From assembly GCA_018333655.1 (NCBI GenBank), contig JAGXTJ010000015.1, positions 1 to 33,149 on the forward strand: DNA of 33,149 bases, written 5' to 3'. The translations under genes were made by a program, and so were the position numbers. The stretch comes from Bacillota bacterium. Its GTDB lineage: Bacteria; Bacillota; UBA994. The notes beneath the pieces are model-generated. The model saw only the letters and a program-made list of their open reading frames with translations. It had not been told where the DNA came from and searched no databases. Of this stretch, positions 579 to 11,996 are shown in pieces (the stretch's first letter is position 1; each line of letters starts with the position of its first letter).

Positions 579-1520
579 CTAAAGGGTGATCACTAAATTA
601 TACTTATCTTTAATAATTTGCACCATGTGCTGATAATGCGTGTGATCGCCTGAAATTTTTAAAGTATACAGGCACTTTTTGAAAGATTCTAAGTGCAGTT
701 CATTGCCAAGATGATACTGAGCAGCAGCTTCTCTAAGAAATAGGAAGTGCAACATGTCTAAATGGCCCTTCCTTAACGACAATTCTATCCCTAATTGTGC
801 GTATTGAAGCGCATCGTGATGCATATCTAAGCGATGGTAATTATAGGATATATTCGCATAAGATTTAATGGCATATAAATCTTCAATTTTGTCACTGTAT
901 AAGTTGCTTTCTACAACGGTTAAGACGTGTTTGGAGATGCGTATACTGAGCTCGCAGTTTCTGAGATCACCTAAGCATGCGGCGACCACAACTAACCCTC
1001 TGATTTCGAGGGCACTGTAACGATATCGGTCAAAATTTTCGATTTGGAAATCATGAATTGACAGCCTAAGGGCGCAAATAATGTTCGTGTAAGCGGATTG
1101 AAGATCGCCTTTGTACCTCAAGCTAATAGCTAATATGAGATGATTGATTTGTTTCAATGTCCTACAATCTACCAGCTTAAGTGCATCGGCCTCACTCAAC
1201 GATACCCTAAAAGATTCATGCAGGCCTTCTATTTCGGTGAATCTGCCAAAGGCCATTAGATGATCTAGTGACTTTAAAAAATCGAAAAGCAAGCCAGATC
1301 TTTGATAGGACGCCAGAATTCTGCCAAGATCCACTTTAAACAATGAACTAAGGTGTACCAGCGTGTCATAGCGTGGTATCGAGTGGCCGTTTTCAATTTT
1401 GCGCAGTGTATCAATATTGACTCCGGTCTCTCTCGACACAATCAACTGAGAATATCCGAGTGCCACCCTTAGTCTCTTTAATTTTTTGCCAAAATTTCTG
1501 AGGTCATATGTCTCAAGCAA
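579..1520 (-). CDS. HTH (XRE) + TPR-like regulator, RRNPP/Rgg-like
   Basis: The protein has an N-terminal XRE helix-turn-helix at about residues 8-65 (GKKLKRLRVALGYSQ, then TLRKIENG) and an all-helical C-terminal part of about 240 residues in TPR-like helix pairs. That is the layout of the RRNPP regulators (Rgg, PlcR, NprR, PrgX), which bind imported peptide pheromones. I chose the TTG at 1520 because GAGGAGG lies 9 bases upstream; this gives about 313 residues, near PlcR length, while the longer frame to 1655 runs across the ribosome site and a palindrome. It is divergent from a small secreted-peptide gene and a radical SAM/ABC operon, so it probably controls them. Peptide control is inferred from architecture. 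A TPR-bearing XRE regulator without a peptide ligand remains possible. Confidence 0.8.
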   Translation of the reverse strand: MLETYDLRNFGKKLKRLRVALGYSQLIVSRETGVNIDTLRKIENGHSIPRYDTLVHLSSLFKVDLGRILASYQRSGLLFDFLKSLDHLMAFGRFTEIEGLHESFRVSLSEADALKLVDCRTLKQINHLILAISLRYKGDLQSAYTNIICALRLSIHDFQIENFDRYRYSALEIRGLVVVAACLGDLRNCELSIRISKHVLTVVESNLYSDKIEDLYAIKSYANISYNYHRLDMHHDALQYAQLGIELSLRKGHLDMLHFLFLREAAAQYHLGNELHLESFKKCLYTLKISGDHTHYQHMVQIIKDKYNLVITL

Positions 1521-1635: not shown

Positions 1636-1821
1636 GTGAAAAAGATATGCTTCATGAAAAGGATAGCAAAGTTGGTGTTAACCCTAATTTTGGGCTTTAT
1701 TTTTTTAACTGGTTTTGCTGATCTTACATGTGCAGCGGATGATGATTATGTAATCCCTTGTTTGGTGGCTGTTACAAGGGGTGGATCTCCTCATCATGGT
1801 GTTGTATGCCGCTGCAAGTAA
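1636..1821 (+). CDS. Small secreted Cys-containing peptide (61 aa); pheromone or RiPP precursor candidate
   Basis: GGAGG (1624-1628) precedes GTG at 1636. A longer frame starts at the ATG at 1582 but has no ribosome site. The product has a basic N-terminus (MKKICFMKRIAK), a hydrophobic stretch at about residues 12-28 and an AxA-like signal peptidase site near residue 34 (TCA/AD). The mature part would be about 28 residues, with acidic DDD, a GGSPHH turn, and Cys at 42, 58 and 60. The gene faces the RRNPP-like regulator, as pheromone genes often do. Alternatives are the substrate of the radical SAM enzyme downstream, or an unrelated small secreted peptide. I do not recognise a family. Confidence 0.65.
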   Translation: MKKICFMKRIAKLVLTLILGFIFLTGFADLTCAADDDYVIPCLVAVTRGGSPHHGVVCRCK

Positions 1822-2050
1822 GAACCGCCTCGGTCACTACTAAGCTTGCGGCTAAGCACGGACACACGGAGCAGCAATTGTCCCTCAGGTTGATCCCCAT
1901 CCTCATACGGCCATTTTGGGGGAGCTAAAACAGTTGGCCAACGCATAGCCCCAGTAATTTGCGTGACAGGCAGGGGGGATTGCTTAGTGAATGCTTAGTT
2001 GCCGAAATAAACTGGGCTTTACACGCTTGAAGCAGAAAGGAGGTGATTTG
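1822..2050. other. Leader region between the two peptide genes, with a phased direct repeat
   Basis: No gene with a ribosome site is visible. The octamer TGCTTAGT occurs at 1981-1988 and 1992-1999, exactly 11 bp (about one helical turn) apart and 52 bp before the 32-residue peptide gene. That suits a protein-binding site on one DNA face. The region may hold the promoter of the peptide-maturase-transporter operon, but I could not place convincing -35 and -10 boxes. One frame near 1859-1945 reads protein-like for about 28 codons without a start and may be decayed coding DNA. Confidence 0.4.
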
Positions 2051-2149
2051 ATGCGTATTCGTAAGGGTAGGTTTTCTTTAACCAAAAACGAGATCGATGT
2101 CTGTGATGGTTGCCCAGGCCGAATGGTATGTGGCGGCAAAAGTCGGTAA
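2051..2149 (+). CDS. Cys-rich 32-residue peptide, probable RiPP precursor
   Basis: A strong ribosome site (AAGGAGGTG) lies 5 bases before ATG 2051. The peptide has a basic and polar front half, MRIRKGRFSLTKNEID, and a tail VCDGCPGRMVCGGKSR with Cys at 18, 21 and 27 and several Gly. Its length, its place directly upstream of a radical SAM/SPASM gene, and the perfect hairpin between the two genes are typical of precursor peptides of thioether-forming maturases (sactipeptide/ranthipeptide types). The front half would be the leader and the Cys/Gly tail the core. It matches no precursor family I know, and the modification type is not deducible from sequence. It could instead be a small regulatory peptide. 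Confidence 0.65.
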   Translation: MRIRKGRFSLTKNEIDVCDGCPGRMVCGGKSR

Positions 2150-2151
2150 AA

Positions 2152-2187
2152 CAACCGAGTGGCCAGAATCATCTGGCCACTCGGTTG
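2152..2187 (+). terminator. Perfect 15-bp hairpin between precursor and maturase; attenuator or processing site
   Basis: Arms CAACCGAGTGGCCAG (2152-2166) and CTGGCCACTCGGTTG (2173-2187) are perfectly complementary around a 6-base loop. The stem begins 2 bases after the peptide stop codon. No U-run follows, so it is more likely a partial terminator, an mRNA 3' stabiliser or a processing site than a full terminator. Such hairpins commonly keep precursor mRNA in excess over enzyme mRNA. Confidence 0.7.
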
Positions 2188-2212: not shown

Positions 2213-3583
2213 ATGAAGCTATCAAAATTTTGTGTTATTATGGAAGCCCCCTCGAATCTTTATCCTCAAGCGCACAATATGCTGCTTATCTACAACACCC
2301 TGACCAAGGCGGCTCATCTACTCTCGAGGCCGCAGTTTGAAGGGCTATGCAACTATCTGGATGGGATTGAGGCTCAAGATGCGGGCCTAAATATCTCTGA
2401 CTTAAAAGAAGATATGATTGTTGTTGACAATAATACTGATGAGGATCTTGTTTTTGAGCACCTATACAACCAAAAGAAATTCAGGGCAGATGATCTAAAA
2501 CTTATTGTAGCCCCTACTACCAATTGCAACCTCCGTTGCTTGTACTGTTTCGAAGAGAACATAGCCAAGACAAACATGGAGGCCAATGTGGAGAAACAAA
2601 TCCCCGTATTTCTAAAAGAGAATTATTTAGAGGGTATAAGACATGCTACCGTCACTTTGCATGGAGGCGAACCCTTATTGTTCCCATCCCTGACATTCAG
2701 AATTATGGATAGCTTGAACTCCTTATTTATGGATAGGCATGTGAAATATCGGTATAATATGGTAACTAACGGCACTACCTTAAGCCGGGATAACGCGAAC
2801 AAGCTCGTAAAAAGAGGCTTGGAGTTTGTGCAAATTACCATAGACGGCTGCAAAGAGTATCATGATTTGAGGCGAATTGACGTAAATGGCAGAGGGACTT
2901 TTGATAAGATAGTTAAGAACATACAAGAAACAATAGATGTAATCCCCAACATAGCGATAAGGATTAGCGTGGACAAACATAACCACAATTTAGATCAAAT
3001 GAAAAACCTGATCGACTATTTGAGTTGCACGGGCATAAAGGACAAGTTGTCAGAAATCTATTTTTCTCCCATTGTTGAAACTACAGATTGTAACAAGCAT
3101 AGTTCGCAATATGCTTTTGGCTTTGAACATGCCAGCGAAACCCTAAATATGCTATCTGATTGGCTGGCACAACAAGGCATACGCCCGCTAGATGAATCAA
3201 ATTACTCTCCATGTTGGGCACACTCCAATAATTCAATAATAATTAATGCTGACGGGGCGTTGTACAAATGCATATCTCTAATTGGGCGAAAAAATTATTC
3301 TGTGGGGGATGTCTTCAGTGGGTTAAACATGAATTACGTGCACTTTGTCAACGTGAATAGATGGAAAGCGTGCCTAAAAGAGGGGTGCCCCTATGTTCCC
3401 ATTTGTGCCGGGTCGTGTCATTTTGATTCAGTTGTTCAATTTGACAGCATAATGCGTAGATCGTGCCGCAAGACACTCATTGAGGGACATTGGATGCATA
3501 TTTTAAAAAAGGGCATTATGGAAACATATCGCACAAAGGGGATGTCTGGTGCGGGGAATATAAATTCAGCAAAAACTCTTTAG
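2213..3583 (+). CDS. Radical SAM/SPASM peptide maturase (456 aa)
   Basis: The radical SAM cluster motif CxxxCxxC is at residues 105-112 (CNLRCLYC), followed by a GGEP motif at about 151-154. The C-terminal SPASM region has Cys at 334, 353, 387, 392, 398, 402 and 418, enough for two auxiliary [4Fe-4S] clusters. The first ~95 residues include YNTLTKAAHLL, resembling the YNTLTG segment near the N-terminus of many RiPP-modifying SPASM enzymes, where the leader is bound. Members reductively cleave SAM and form thioether or C-C crosslinks, or act as anaerobic sulfatase-type maturases. The adjacent Cys peptide and ABC exporter favour RiPP crosslinking. GGAGG (2201-2205) supports the start. The exact chemistry is unknown. 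Confidence 0.88.
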   Translation: MKLSKFCVIMEAPSNLYPQAHNMLLIYNTLTKAAHLLSRPQFEGLCNYLDGIEAQDAGLNISDLKEDMIVVDNNTDEDLVFEHLYNQKKFRADDLKLIVAPTTNCNLRCLYCFEENIAKTNMEANVEKQIPVFLKENYLEGIRHATVTLHGGEPLLFPSLTFRIMDSLNSLFMDRHVKYRYNMVTNGTTLSRDNANKLVKRGLEFVQITIDGCKEYHDLRRIDVNGRGTFDKIVKNIQETIDVIPNIAIRISVDKHNHNLDQMKNLIDYLSCTGIKDKLSEIYFSPIVETTDCNKHSSQYAFGFEHASETLNMLSDWLAQQGIRPLDESNYSPCWAHSNNSIIINADGALYKCISLIGRKNYSVGDVFSGLNMNYVHFVNVNRWKACLKEGCPYVPICAGSCHFDSVVQFDSIMRRSCRKTLIEGHWMHILKKGIMETYRTKGMSGAGNINSAKTL

Positions 3584-3596
3584 GGAGGAACCGGTC

Positions 3597-4532
3597 TTGA
3601 TATTGCTCAGAAGTGTTGCGAAGGCTTTTCGAAATCGGTCTGACATAGTTCAAGCGATCGACCACATCGACCTCAATATTGAGCCCAAGCAAATCTTTTC
3701 TCTTTTAGGCCCAAATGGAGCCGGTAAGACCACGCTGATAAAATTGCTGTGCGGTCTTATCACGCCCGACTCGGGCCAGATAATGATTAACGGGGTAGAC
3801 ATAGGGAGACAACCTCATATCGCTAAGCAACTTATAGGGGTCGTACTTGAAAGCGCAAAAAATGTGTATCAGTACCTTACGGTTAGGGAGACATTAGAAT
3901 ATTTTGGGCTGCTTAATGGCCTAGCCGGGGCCAAACTAAGCAAAAGGATATGCTACCTTACGGAGATGTTCAGTCTGCAGGAAAAAATCAGCCATAAAGT
4001 AGGGACGCTTTCAAGGGGCATGCAGCAAAAATTGGCGATAATGATTGCGATGGTGAAGGACCCTGAAATCCTTATTCTGGACGAACCGACCTTAGGCCTA
4101 GACGTAATAAGCAGCCTTAAGATTAGGGATGTCATCAAGGATTTGGCACGGGGGAAAACTATCATCTTGACTACGCACGCCTTGGAACTCGCTGCGGAGC
4201 TTTCTGATAGGATAGCTATCATTAATAAGGGGCGGATTGTGCATCATTCAACTATGCCAGAACTTGTAGCGAGTTATCAGGTGAATGAGGATTCTTACCG
4301 CATTGTGTTCAGAGCAACCAGTGCGGAAATCGAGAGCCTAAACCGCAGGGATCCCAAAGTAGAGGTTACAGAGTTGCAGGATTCTCTCTATCAAGTAAAA
4401 GCTGGTCCTGAAGCGGCGAGCTTTTTAATGCGAAACTTCAATATTATTGAGCTGGAGAAAGAAAATGCGGATTTAGAGTCGATCTTTATTGATCTGCTGC
4501 ATAAAAGTACAGCCCAAAGGAGGGATGCATAG
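3597..4532 (+). CDS. ABC transporter ATP-binding protein, peptide export candidate
   Basis: This is the ATPase subunit of an ABC-2 type exporter (CcmA/DrrA-like). Walker A is GPNGAGKTT at residues 38-46, the signature LSRGMQQ at 138-144, Walker B with catalytic Glu LILDEP near 159-164, and the switch His TTH near 194. An extra C-terminal domain of about 90 residues follows, as in antibiotic and bacteriocin exporters. The start is TTG with AGGGAGG 8 bases upstream. It begins 13 bases after the radical SAM gene and its last base overlaps the GTG of the permease (TAGTG), so the two are translationally coupled. It probably exports the modified peptide and may give self-immunity; this is inferred from context. 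Confidence 0.9.
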   Translation: MILLRSVAKAFRNRSDIVQAIDHIDLNIEPKQIFSLLGPNGAGKTTLIKLLCGLITPDSGQIMINGVDIGRQPHIAKQLIGVVLESAKNVYQYLTVRETLEYFGLLNGLAGAKLSKRICYLTEMFSLQEKISHKVGTLSRGMQQKLAIMIAMVKDPEILILDEPTLGLDVISSLKIRDVIKDLARGKTIILTTHALELAAELSDRIAIINKGRIVHHSTMPELVASYQVNEDSYRIVFRATSAEIESLNRRDPKVEVTELQDSLYQVKAGPEAASFLMRNFNIIELEKENADLESIFIDLLHKSTAQRRDA

Positions 4533-5347
4533 TGTTTGTCTCGATACTGCGCGCTGAATTTAAAAAGTTAACCGCTGACTATCGAAATTACTTCCTAAAC
4601 TACATAGTTGGCCACGCTACCCTCTTTCTTTTGGCTGTAGGGCTGTTTTCTGCGTTCGCGCACACTACCTCTCAGGCGCCTTCATCAACCCTAGCGTTCT
4701 TCTTTGCTCTGTTGTTCTGGTATTACAGCGGTGATGCCATTGGTATCACCGGGCAAATTGTTTCCGAGGAACTTATGCTGGGCACTTTCGAACAGCTTTT
4801 GCTTACCAAGGGGAGTATCAAACGTATTTTCCTAGCTCGTCTGATTGTGCAATTCATCTTTCAGTCCATGTTTGCTCTAGTGTTTTTTTCAGTCCTTGTA
4901 TCCATATTTGGTATGTGGGGCGTCTTTTTTGGGCTAGGTAATAGAGTGCTAGCCCTTTGCATAGTCTTTATTCTCACTGTACTTGGGCTGTATGGGATGG
5001 GGTTTGTCGTGGCAGGCTTATCGCTGGTCTTTAAGCAAGCGGGGGCGGTATCAAGCGTGCTAACGTATACCGTTCTGTTTTTCACGGGGAGCATAGTGAA
5101 TGTCGACAGGATCCCAGCCGTAGTAAGGCCGCTTGTTTACCTAATACCTGCTACTGCGGGGAATAGTCTTTTAAGGGCTGACATCTTGCCGGCGGAAGGC
5201 CTAGCCGCTGTAGAATTAGCAACAAACCCCATGTTTTTGTATCTTGTCGTCTTAGTTGGGTTGTGGTTATTCTTCGGTAACGGCATTTTCAATTTCTGCT
5301 TAAAAAGTGCTATGAGAAAAGGTAACTTGCATAGTTACTATTTTTAG
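4532..5347 (+). CDS. ABC-2 type permease of the peptide exporter
   Basis: The 271-residue protein is very hydrophobic, with about six membrane segments (roughly 25-45, 55-75, 105-130, 138-165, 170-195 and 225-250). This is the usual shape of ABC-2 permeases paired with DrrA/CcmA-like ATPases. A ribosome site (AAAGGAGGG) lies in the end of the ATPase gene, and the GTG start overlaps the ATPase stop. It completes the presumed exporter of the peptide operon. No separate immunity gene or leader peptidase is visible in the island. If the leader is removed, the protease must be encoded elsewhere or act outside the cell. Confidence 0.88.
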   Translation: MFVSILRAEFKKLTADYRNYFLNYIVGHATLFLLAVGLFSAFAHTTSQAPSSTLAFFFALLFWYYSGDAIGITGQIVSEELMLGTFEQLLLTKGSIKRIFLARLIVQFIFQSMFALVFFSVLVSIFGMWGVFFGLGNRVLALCIVFILTVLGLYGMGFVVAGLSLVFKQAGAVSSVLTYTVLFFTGSIVNVDRIPAVVRPLVYLIPATAGNSLLRADILPAEGLAAVELATNPMFLYLVVLVGLWLFFGNGIFNFCLKSAMRKGNLHSYYF

Positions 5348-11414: not shown

Positions 11415-11996
11415 TTGAAGCAATTCGCCACAGAAGAACTACGTAACGTCTGTCTTGTCGGGCATGGTGGGTCTGGGAAAACCTCATTTTTAGAGGCAGC
11501 CCTCTACAGCAGCCAAGCTATCGACCGCATGGGGCGCGTAGACGAAGGTAACACCGTGTCCGACCACGACCCGGAGGAGGTTAAGCGCTCAATCTCTATC
11601 GCCACTTCTCTGGGGCCGTGCGTGTGGCAAGGGCACAAGGTAAATTTTGTCGACACGCCTGGCTACTTTGACTTTGTTGGCGAAGTCAAAGGCGCACTGC
11701 GCGCCACCGACGTCGCGCTTGTCTTTGCCTGCGCGGTTTCGGGTGTTGAAGTGGGAACCGAGAAGGTATGGGACTACGCGGGGGAAAGGAACATGGCTCG
11801 CGCATTTCTCATTAACAAGATGGACCGCGAAAACGCAAACTTTGACCGCGTTGTAGAAGAGATTCGCCAGACGTTTGGCACTTCGGCTGCTCCGCTGCAG
11901 ATTCCTATCGGGCAAGAAGCGAAGTTTGCCGGCGTGGTCGATTTGCTTAAGCAAAAGGCTTTATGCAGAACATACTTGACAGAGCTAAAGCCTTAG
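11415..11996 (+). pseudogene. EF-G-like GTPase, truncated to its G domain
   Basis: The first ~183 residues match an EF-G paralogue: P-loop GHGGSGKTS (16-24), switch/G3 DTPGY (80-84) and G4 NKMD (134-137). AGGAGG precedes the TTG start at 11415. EF-G proteins are about 680 residues with five domains; here homology stops inside the G domain after VVDLLKQKA and the frame ends at 11996. The last ~34 bases overlap the start of an M20 amidohydrolase. A deletion or rearrangement has therefore joined the front of this gene to another locus. A working translocase is impossible; a residual GTPase fragment might still be made. Confidence 0.85.

Follow-up and report, generated by a model that had tools for sequence, protein, structure and literature searches.

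Is the 32-residue, Cys-rich peptide encoded ahead of a radical-SAM gene in a Bacillota genome the substrate of that enzyme? The window, meaning the whole stretch of 33,149 nucleotides that we analyzed, corresponds to contig C15 in an assembly of 2.2 Mb and 57 contigs, and it contains the following features around this short open reading frame (ORF):

579 to 1520, minus strand: HTH and TPR regulator, RRNPP-like (Pfam HTH_19; likely TTG start at 1520, frame open to 1655)
1636 to 1821, plus strand: secreted small ORF of 61 residues, signal-peptide-like in sequence and divergent from the regulator, a candidate pheromone precursor
2036 to 2047, plus strand: Shine-Dalgarno AAAGGAGGTGAT, ahead of the ATG start codon at 2051 and unique in the window
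2051 to 2149, plus strand: probable precursor peptide gene, 32 residues (translation; conserved counterpart in genome G107)
2111 to 2146, plus strand: probable core, CPGRMV-CGGKSR, a tandem of two C[GP]G[RK]xx units with 9 of its 12 residues the same in G107
2152 to 2187, plus strand: hairpin of 16 pairs with a 4-nt loop, between the precursor and maturase genes (-32.7 kcal/mol; none of 200 shuffles as stable)
2213 to 3583, plus strand: predicted radical-SAM/SPASM maturase, 456 residues, with a putative RRE-like N terminus (Pfam Radical_SAM; Cys ligands; CteB-like model)
3597 to 4532, plus strand: ABC transporter ATPase (Pfam ABC_tran; 49% identical to its G107 counterpart)
4532 to 5347, plus strand: ABC-2 type permease, predicted to be the likely exporter (Pfam ABC2_membrane; 47% identical to its G107 counterpart)

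We put at roughly 80% the probability that the 32-residue ORF encodes the precursor of a small radical-SAM RiPP under pheromone control. An earlier sequence-only reading had claimed this peptide as the maturase substrate, and that claim is well supported by synteny, by conservation of the frame, and by the fold of the maturase. Because the tail of the peptide is kept in one distant bacterium with the same gene set, the peptide is very probably the raw material of a modified peptide.

The ORF is real and of the length first claimed: translation of positions 2051 to 2149 gives MRIRKGRFSLTKNEIDVCDGCPGRMVCGGKSR and a stop, that is, 32 residues with Cys at positions 18, 21, and 27. The strong ribosome site described ahead of it is also borne out, as the core AAAGGAGGTGAT, a near-ideal Shine-Dalgarno in its match to the 3' end of the 16S rRNA, is found once in the 33-kb window (2036 to 2047) and in none of 100 shuffles. 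By itself, however, the combination of an ORF, a Shine-Dalgarno, and three Cys is within chance for the window and not exceptional: there are eight GGAGG-led ORFs of 20 to 60 residues (the in-frame TTG and ATG starts at 2048/2051 being taken as one), and five of the eight contain at least three Cys. Since such combinations are common in the window, the case rests on position and conservation. Short, Shine-Dalgarno-led ORFs containing Cys are also present at 19 of the 22 radical-SAM loci examined, a count that we do not use as evidence because it is uncontrolled and some of these ORFs fall within other reading frames. Searches of Pfam and NCBIfam returned no family for the 32-residue precursor. 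Other radical-SAM precursors, such as PqqA, mycofactocin, and streptide, are about as short, so its small size is not new in itself.

A search with the radical-SAM protein across 149 related genomes gave a single clearly closer match, in G107 (45% identity over residues 78 to 436), and we located the G107 peptide by reading upstream from this best nonself relative, with no motif search used. At the same place upstream of its radical-SAM gene, G107 has a 34-residue ORF, MTRLKEGTKLSSLAIRSHALSPCGGRVICGGKSR, with its own Shine-Dalgarno; it ends in CGGRVICGGKSR, compared with CPGRMVCGGKSR in the window. The last 12 codons show 12 base differences in 36, with 5, 1, and 6 of them at the first, second, and third codon positions, and 3 of 12 residues change. 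Random substitution retains as many tail residues in only 40 of 100,000 trials, and the tail region of G107 has stops in both of its other plus frames. Conservation of the frame in a relative that keeps the radical-SAM gene was the test that the sequence-only reading had set for itself; the frame is conserved in G107, with changes that are mostly synonymous or conservative. Both tails can be read as two units, CPGRMV-CGGKSR in the window and CGGRVI-CGGKSR in G107, or C[G/P]G[R/K]xx twice, a reading made after seeing the sequences, with shuffle counts (63 and 7 of 200,000) that are post hoc.

The comparison narrows what had been claimed for the rest of the peptide. Of the three Cys, C21 and C27 are conserved and C18 is missing from G107, and we reject a three-Cys reading of the core. 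Among the proposed crosslink acceptors, Gly alone is conserved in G107, with Met25, Asp17, and Asp19 unshared; the conserved positions at which crosslinks might form comprise C21 and C27, the glycines, Ser31, Arg32, and the Arg or Lys of each unit. The basic, leader-like half is not significantly similar to that of the G107 peptide (three identities beyond Met, equaled by 15,813 of 100,000 shuffles), and leader homology between the two peptides is rejected. The same comparison bears on the proposal that the ORF encodes the precursor of a Cys-to-Asp/Asn ranthipeptide of the PapB or NxxcB type, with Asp17 and Asp19 as acceptors. PapB (NF047865) is among the NCBIfam matches of the maturase, at 125 bits, and the available text of PMC9413430 describes PapB as accepting varied Cys-Xn-Asp spacing; we nevertheless consider this proposal unlikely, given a G107 tail containing no Asp, Asn, or Glu and a PapB cut-off of 340 bits, well above the score obtained.

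The window and G107 share a gene order of peptide ORF, hairpin, radical-SAM gene, ABC ATPase, and ABC-2 permease, with an HTH/TPR regulator nearby. In G107, a 16-pair stem with a 4-nt loop, unrelated in sequence, directly follows the peptide stop and exceeds all 200 shuffles in stability. The hairpin is without a T-run in both genomes, which sets it apart from an ordinary terminator, and a terminator role is rejected; the hairpin is absent at both other loci tested in the genome of the window (contigs C9 and C36). The position of the 32-residue ORF, immediately 5' of the radical-SAM gene and with a strong hairpin behind it in both genomes, would also suit a regulatory leader peptide, in which ribosome position and the hairpin control expression of the enzyme. 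We find this quite unlikely, as the hairpin lacks a T-run, the conserved tail contains no run of a single amino acid, and the neighboring gene encodes a CteB-like maturase, which needs a peptide substrate. If the ORF is instead the precursor gene, the strong ribosome site would allow the peptide to be made in excess, and the hairpin behind its stop may serve to uncouple the maturase. Further along the window, at 11415 to 11996, a short ORF with an elongation-factor-like GTPase domain (about 193 residues) runs into an M20 peptidase ORF and looks like a truncated EF-G-type gene.

The CX3CX2C and SPASM ligands of the maturase (C105, C109, C112, C334, C353, C387, C392, C398, C402, and C418) are invariant in 14 aligned sequences. 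The window and G107 enzymes share a SPASM CX4C (C387/C392), in place of the CX2C seen in the remaining 12. CteB is the closest structure to the AlphaFold model of the maturase (mean pLDDT 82.5), with a Foldseek E of 8e-20 and a VIA Z of 27.8 over 384 aligned residues (rmsd 3.7 Å, residues 4 to 437). anSME and ChlB score almost as high, at most about 1 Z unit from CteB, but their alignments start only at about residue 88; TigE has a Z of 24.0. The N-terminal region was aligned within the whole maturase model only, from residue 4 with CteB and from residue 1 with TigE. As the N-terminal domain of CteB binds the leader of its precursor (PMC8326336), an RRE-like, peptide-binding role for residues 1 to 90 is a fair inference from the model, and this region would bind the N-terminal half of the precursor.

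The likeness to CteB/CteA, a SCIFF ranthipeptide system (PDB 5wgg and 5why), extends over the full-length fold including the N-terminal region, and both precursors contain Cys (for the bound leader of CteA, see PMC8326336). The window precursor has three Cys, two of them conserved, and not six, and the window maturase is 20% identical to CteB and has the SPASM CX4C. Its score against the SCIFF model TIGR03974 is 73.4 bits, compared with a cut-off of 425. The best-scoring curated families match near full length and far below their cut-offs: TIGR04463 (radical SAM, Cys-rich peptide; 223.7 of 525 bits), TIGR04280 (geopeptide maturase; 217.5 of 400), NF038107 (CefB; 176.6 of 600), and TIGR04334 (Clo7bot; 138.7 of 600). 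Our literature search found nothing on CGGKSR, TIGR04463, Clo7bot, or geopeptide with radical SAM.

For the regulator, whose model is weaker (mean pLDDT 69.8), each of the 13 Foldseek matches with E ≤ 0.001 is PlcR, ComR, or Rgg2. The window and G107 regulators share 29% identity when aligned and 26% over the BLASTP segment. In G107 the regulator gene is found on the far side of the permease gene, pointing toward it, and a secreted 92-residue ORF is divergent from the regulator. The RRNPP-like model and the divergent secreted ORF suggest peptide-pheromone control of the operon, which the regulator, probably sensing a secreted peptide, would switch on. An inverted repeat, CACCCCGATT-TT-AATCGGGGTG, at 1536 to 1557, just upstream of the ribosome site of the regulator, is a possible autoregulatory operator. 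The 61-residue secreted protein could itself be the maturase substrate, making the 32-residue ORF incidental: it is encoded upstream in the same orientation and has several Cys after the signal-like stretch. It matched only itself, however, in 398 phylum genomes, the draw that contains the G107 cassette; the secreted ORF of G107 adjoins the regulator, away from the maturase; and a protein with a signal peptide would probably leave the cytosol before it could be modified, all of which makes it very unlikely as the substrate.

For the 32-residue precursor, the streptococcal RaS-RiPPs provide a parallel. Rgg-linked RaS-RiPPs are established in streptococci, and the available text of PMC13361665 describes subfamilies (KxxxW streptide, GGG, QMP, KGR, NxxC, CGG, and CGx) that likewise combine a precursor, a radical-SAM enzyme, and an RRNPP regulator, with CGG and CGx uncharacterized in that text. 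The names CGG and CGx echo the window tail, a likeness in name, from another lineage.

The degenerate pattern C-x-G-[RS]-x-x-C-G-G-K, which was built from the two peptides that it finds, matches two genomes among 398 of the phylum and only at the window and G107 sites, with none of the 398 matching the reversed-pattern control; the identical two genomes are recovered with the radical-SAM protein at E ≤ 1e-50 (up to four first-look candidates scored per genome). No second close copy was found in the family of G107 (5 genomes) or in the classes of G107 (13), G122 (3), and G082 (20). The class of G097 (37 genomes) includes three genomes, outside the 398 draw, with radical-SAM relatives at 31 to 32% identity, all without the tail, and the conserved tail is absent from the more distant relatives examined (22 to 32% identity). 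The loci L046 and L047 have no Cys-rich ORF directly upstream under the same filter. Scanning genome contigs with the whole radical-SAM protein gave no relative, and with a C-terminal profile only two, at 28 to 30%; no relative turned up in viral contigs, whether with the profile or with the motif, and the best plasmid relatives among the matches listed are 26 to 29% identical. The evidence is strong but narrow, because known members number two, the window and G107, and the G107 radical-SAM gene carries a frameshift, either real or from sequencing. The product is very probably a small modified peptide whose general type is already known and whose sequence had not been listed before.

In the proposed pathway, the radical-SAM/SPASM core would act on the tail and form one Cys-derived crosslink each at C21 and C27, so that each Cys would close a single ring; a thioether is the likeliest linkage, as judged from the nearest structural relative of the enzyme. 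Precedents for short repeated units that are modified in every repeat are CX3D/E in PapA (PMC9413430) and TVGG in TvgA (PMC9062424). The dedicated ABC-2 transporter would export the product, and, as the cassette contains no protease gene, leader trimming, if any, would fall to a housekeeping peptidase. A more tentative possibility is that one enzyme, via its enlarged SPASM CX4C loop, forms two identical small rings of an undescribed kind on the C[G/P]G[R/K]xx repeat, for example from Cys to a neighboring Gly alpha-carbon or to the Arg/Lys side chain.

Other radical-SAM loci also have small ORFs. On contig C9 of the same genome (L043; 155 to 232, 297 to 1616, and 1613 to 5663), a second radical-SAM gene has an upstream ORF of 25 residues, MVKIVKRARPLCQAMGCGCFCGKSA, and is accompanied by a GNAT protein and two ABC exporters; the tail of this candidate, CGKSA, faintly resembles CGGKSR, and no other copy of this radical-SAM protein was found at E ≤ 1e-60 in the 398 phylum genomes. 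On contig C36 (L044, 3500 to 5459, with L003, 1247 to 1393), a 48-residue Cys-containing ORF is followed by radical-SAM frames that an in-frame TAG interrupts and by a second, partial radical-SAM gene; the whole looks like a decaying RiPP locus. In two other genomes, several tandem Cys-rich, precursor-like ORFs lie ahead of radical-SAM relatives (L008, 220 to 1405; L009, 706 to 1340 on the strand of its radical-SAM gene).

If the rings are of the undescribed kind, the peptide would represent a new precursor family, with substrates among the shortest of any maturase that bears an RRE. A concrete two-Cys core is now available for co-expression testing. More generally, an orphan radical-SAM maturase can have its substrate encoded in fewer than 100 bases, by an ORF that profile libraries miss, and the 25-residue candidate on contig C9 suggests that precursors this small may be escaping notice more widely.
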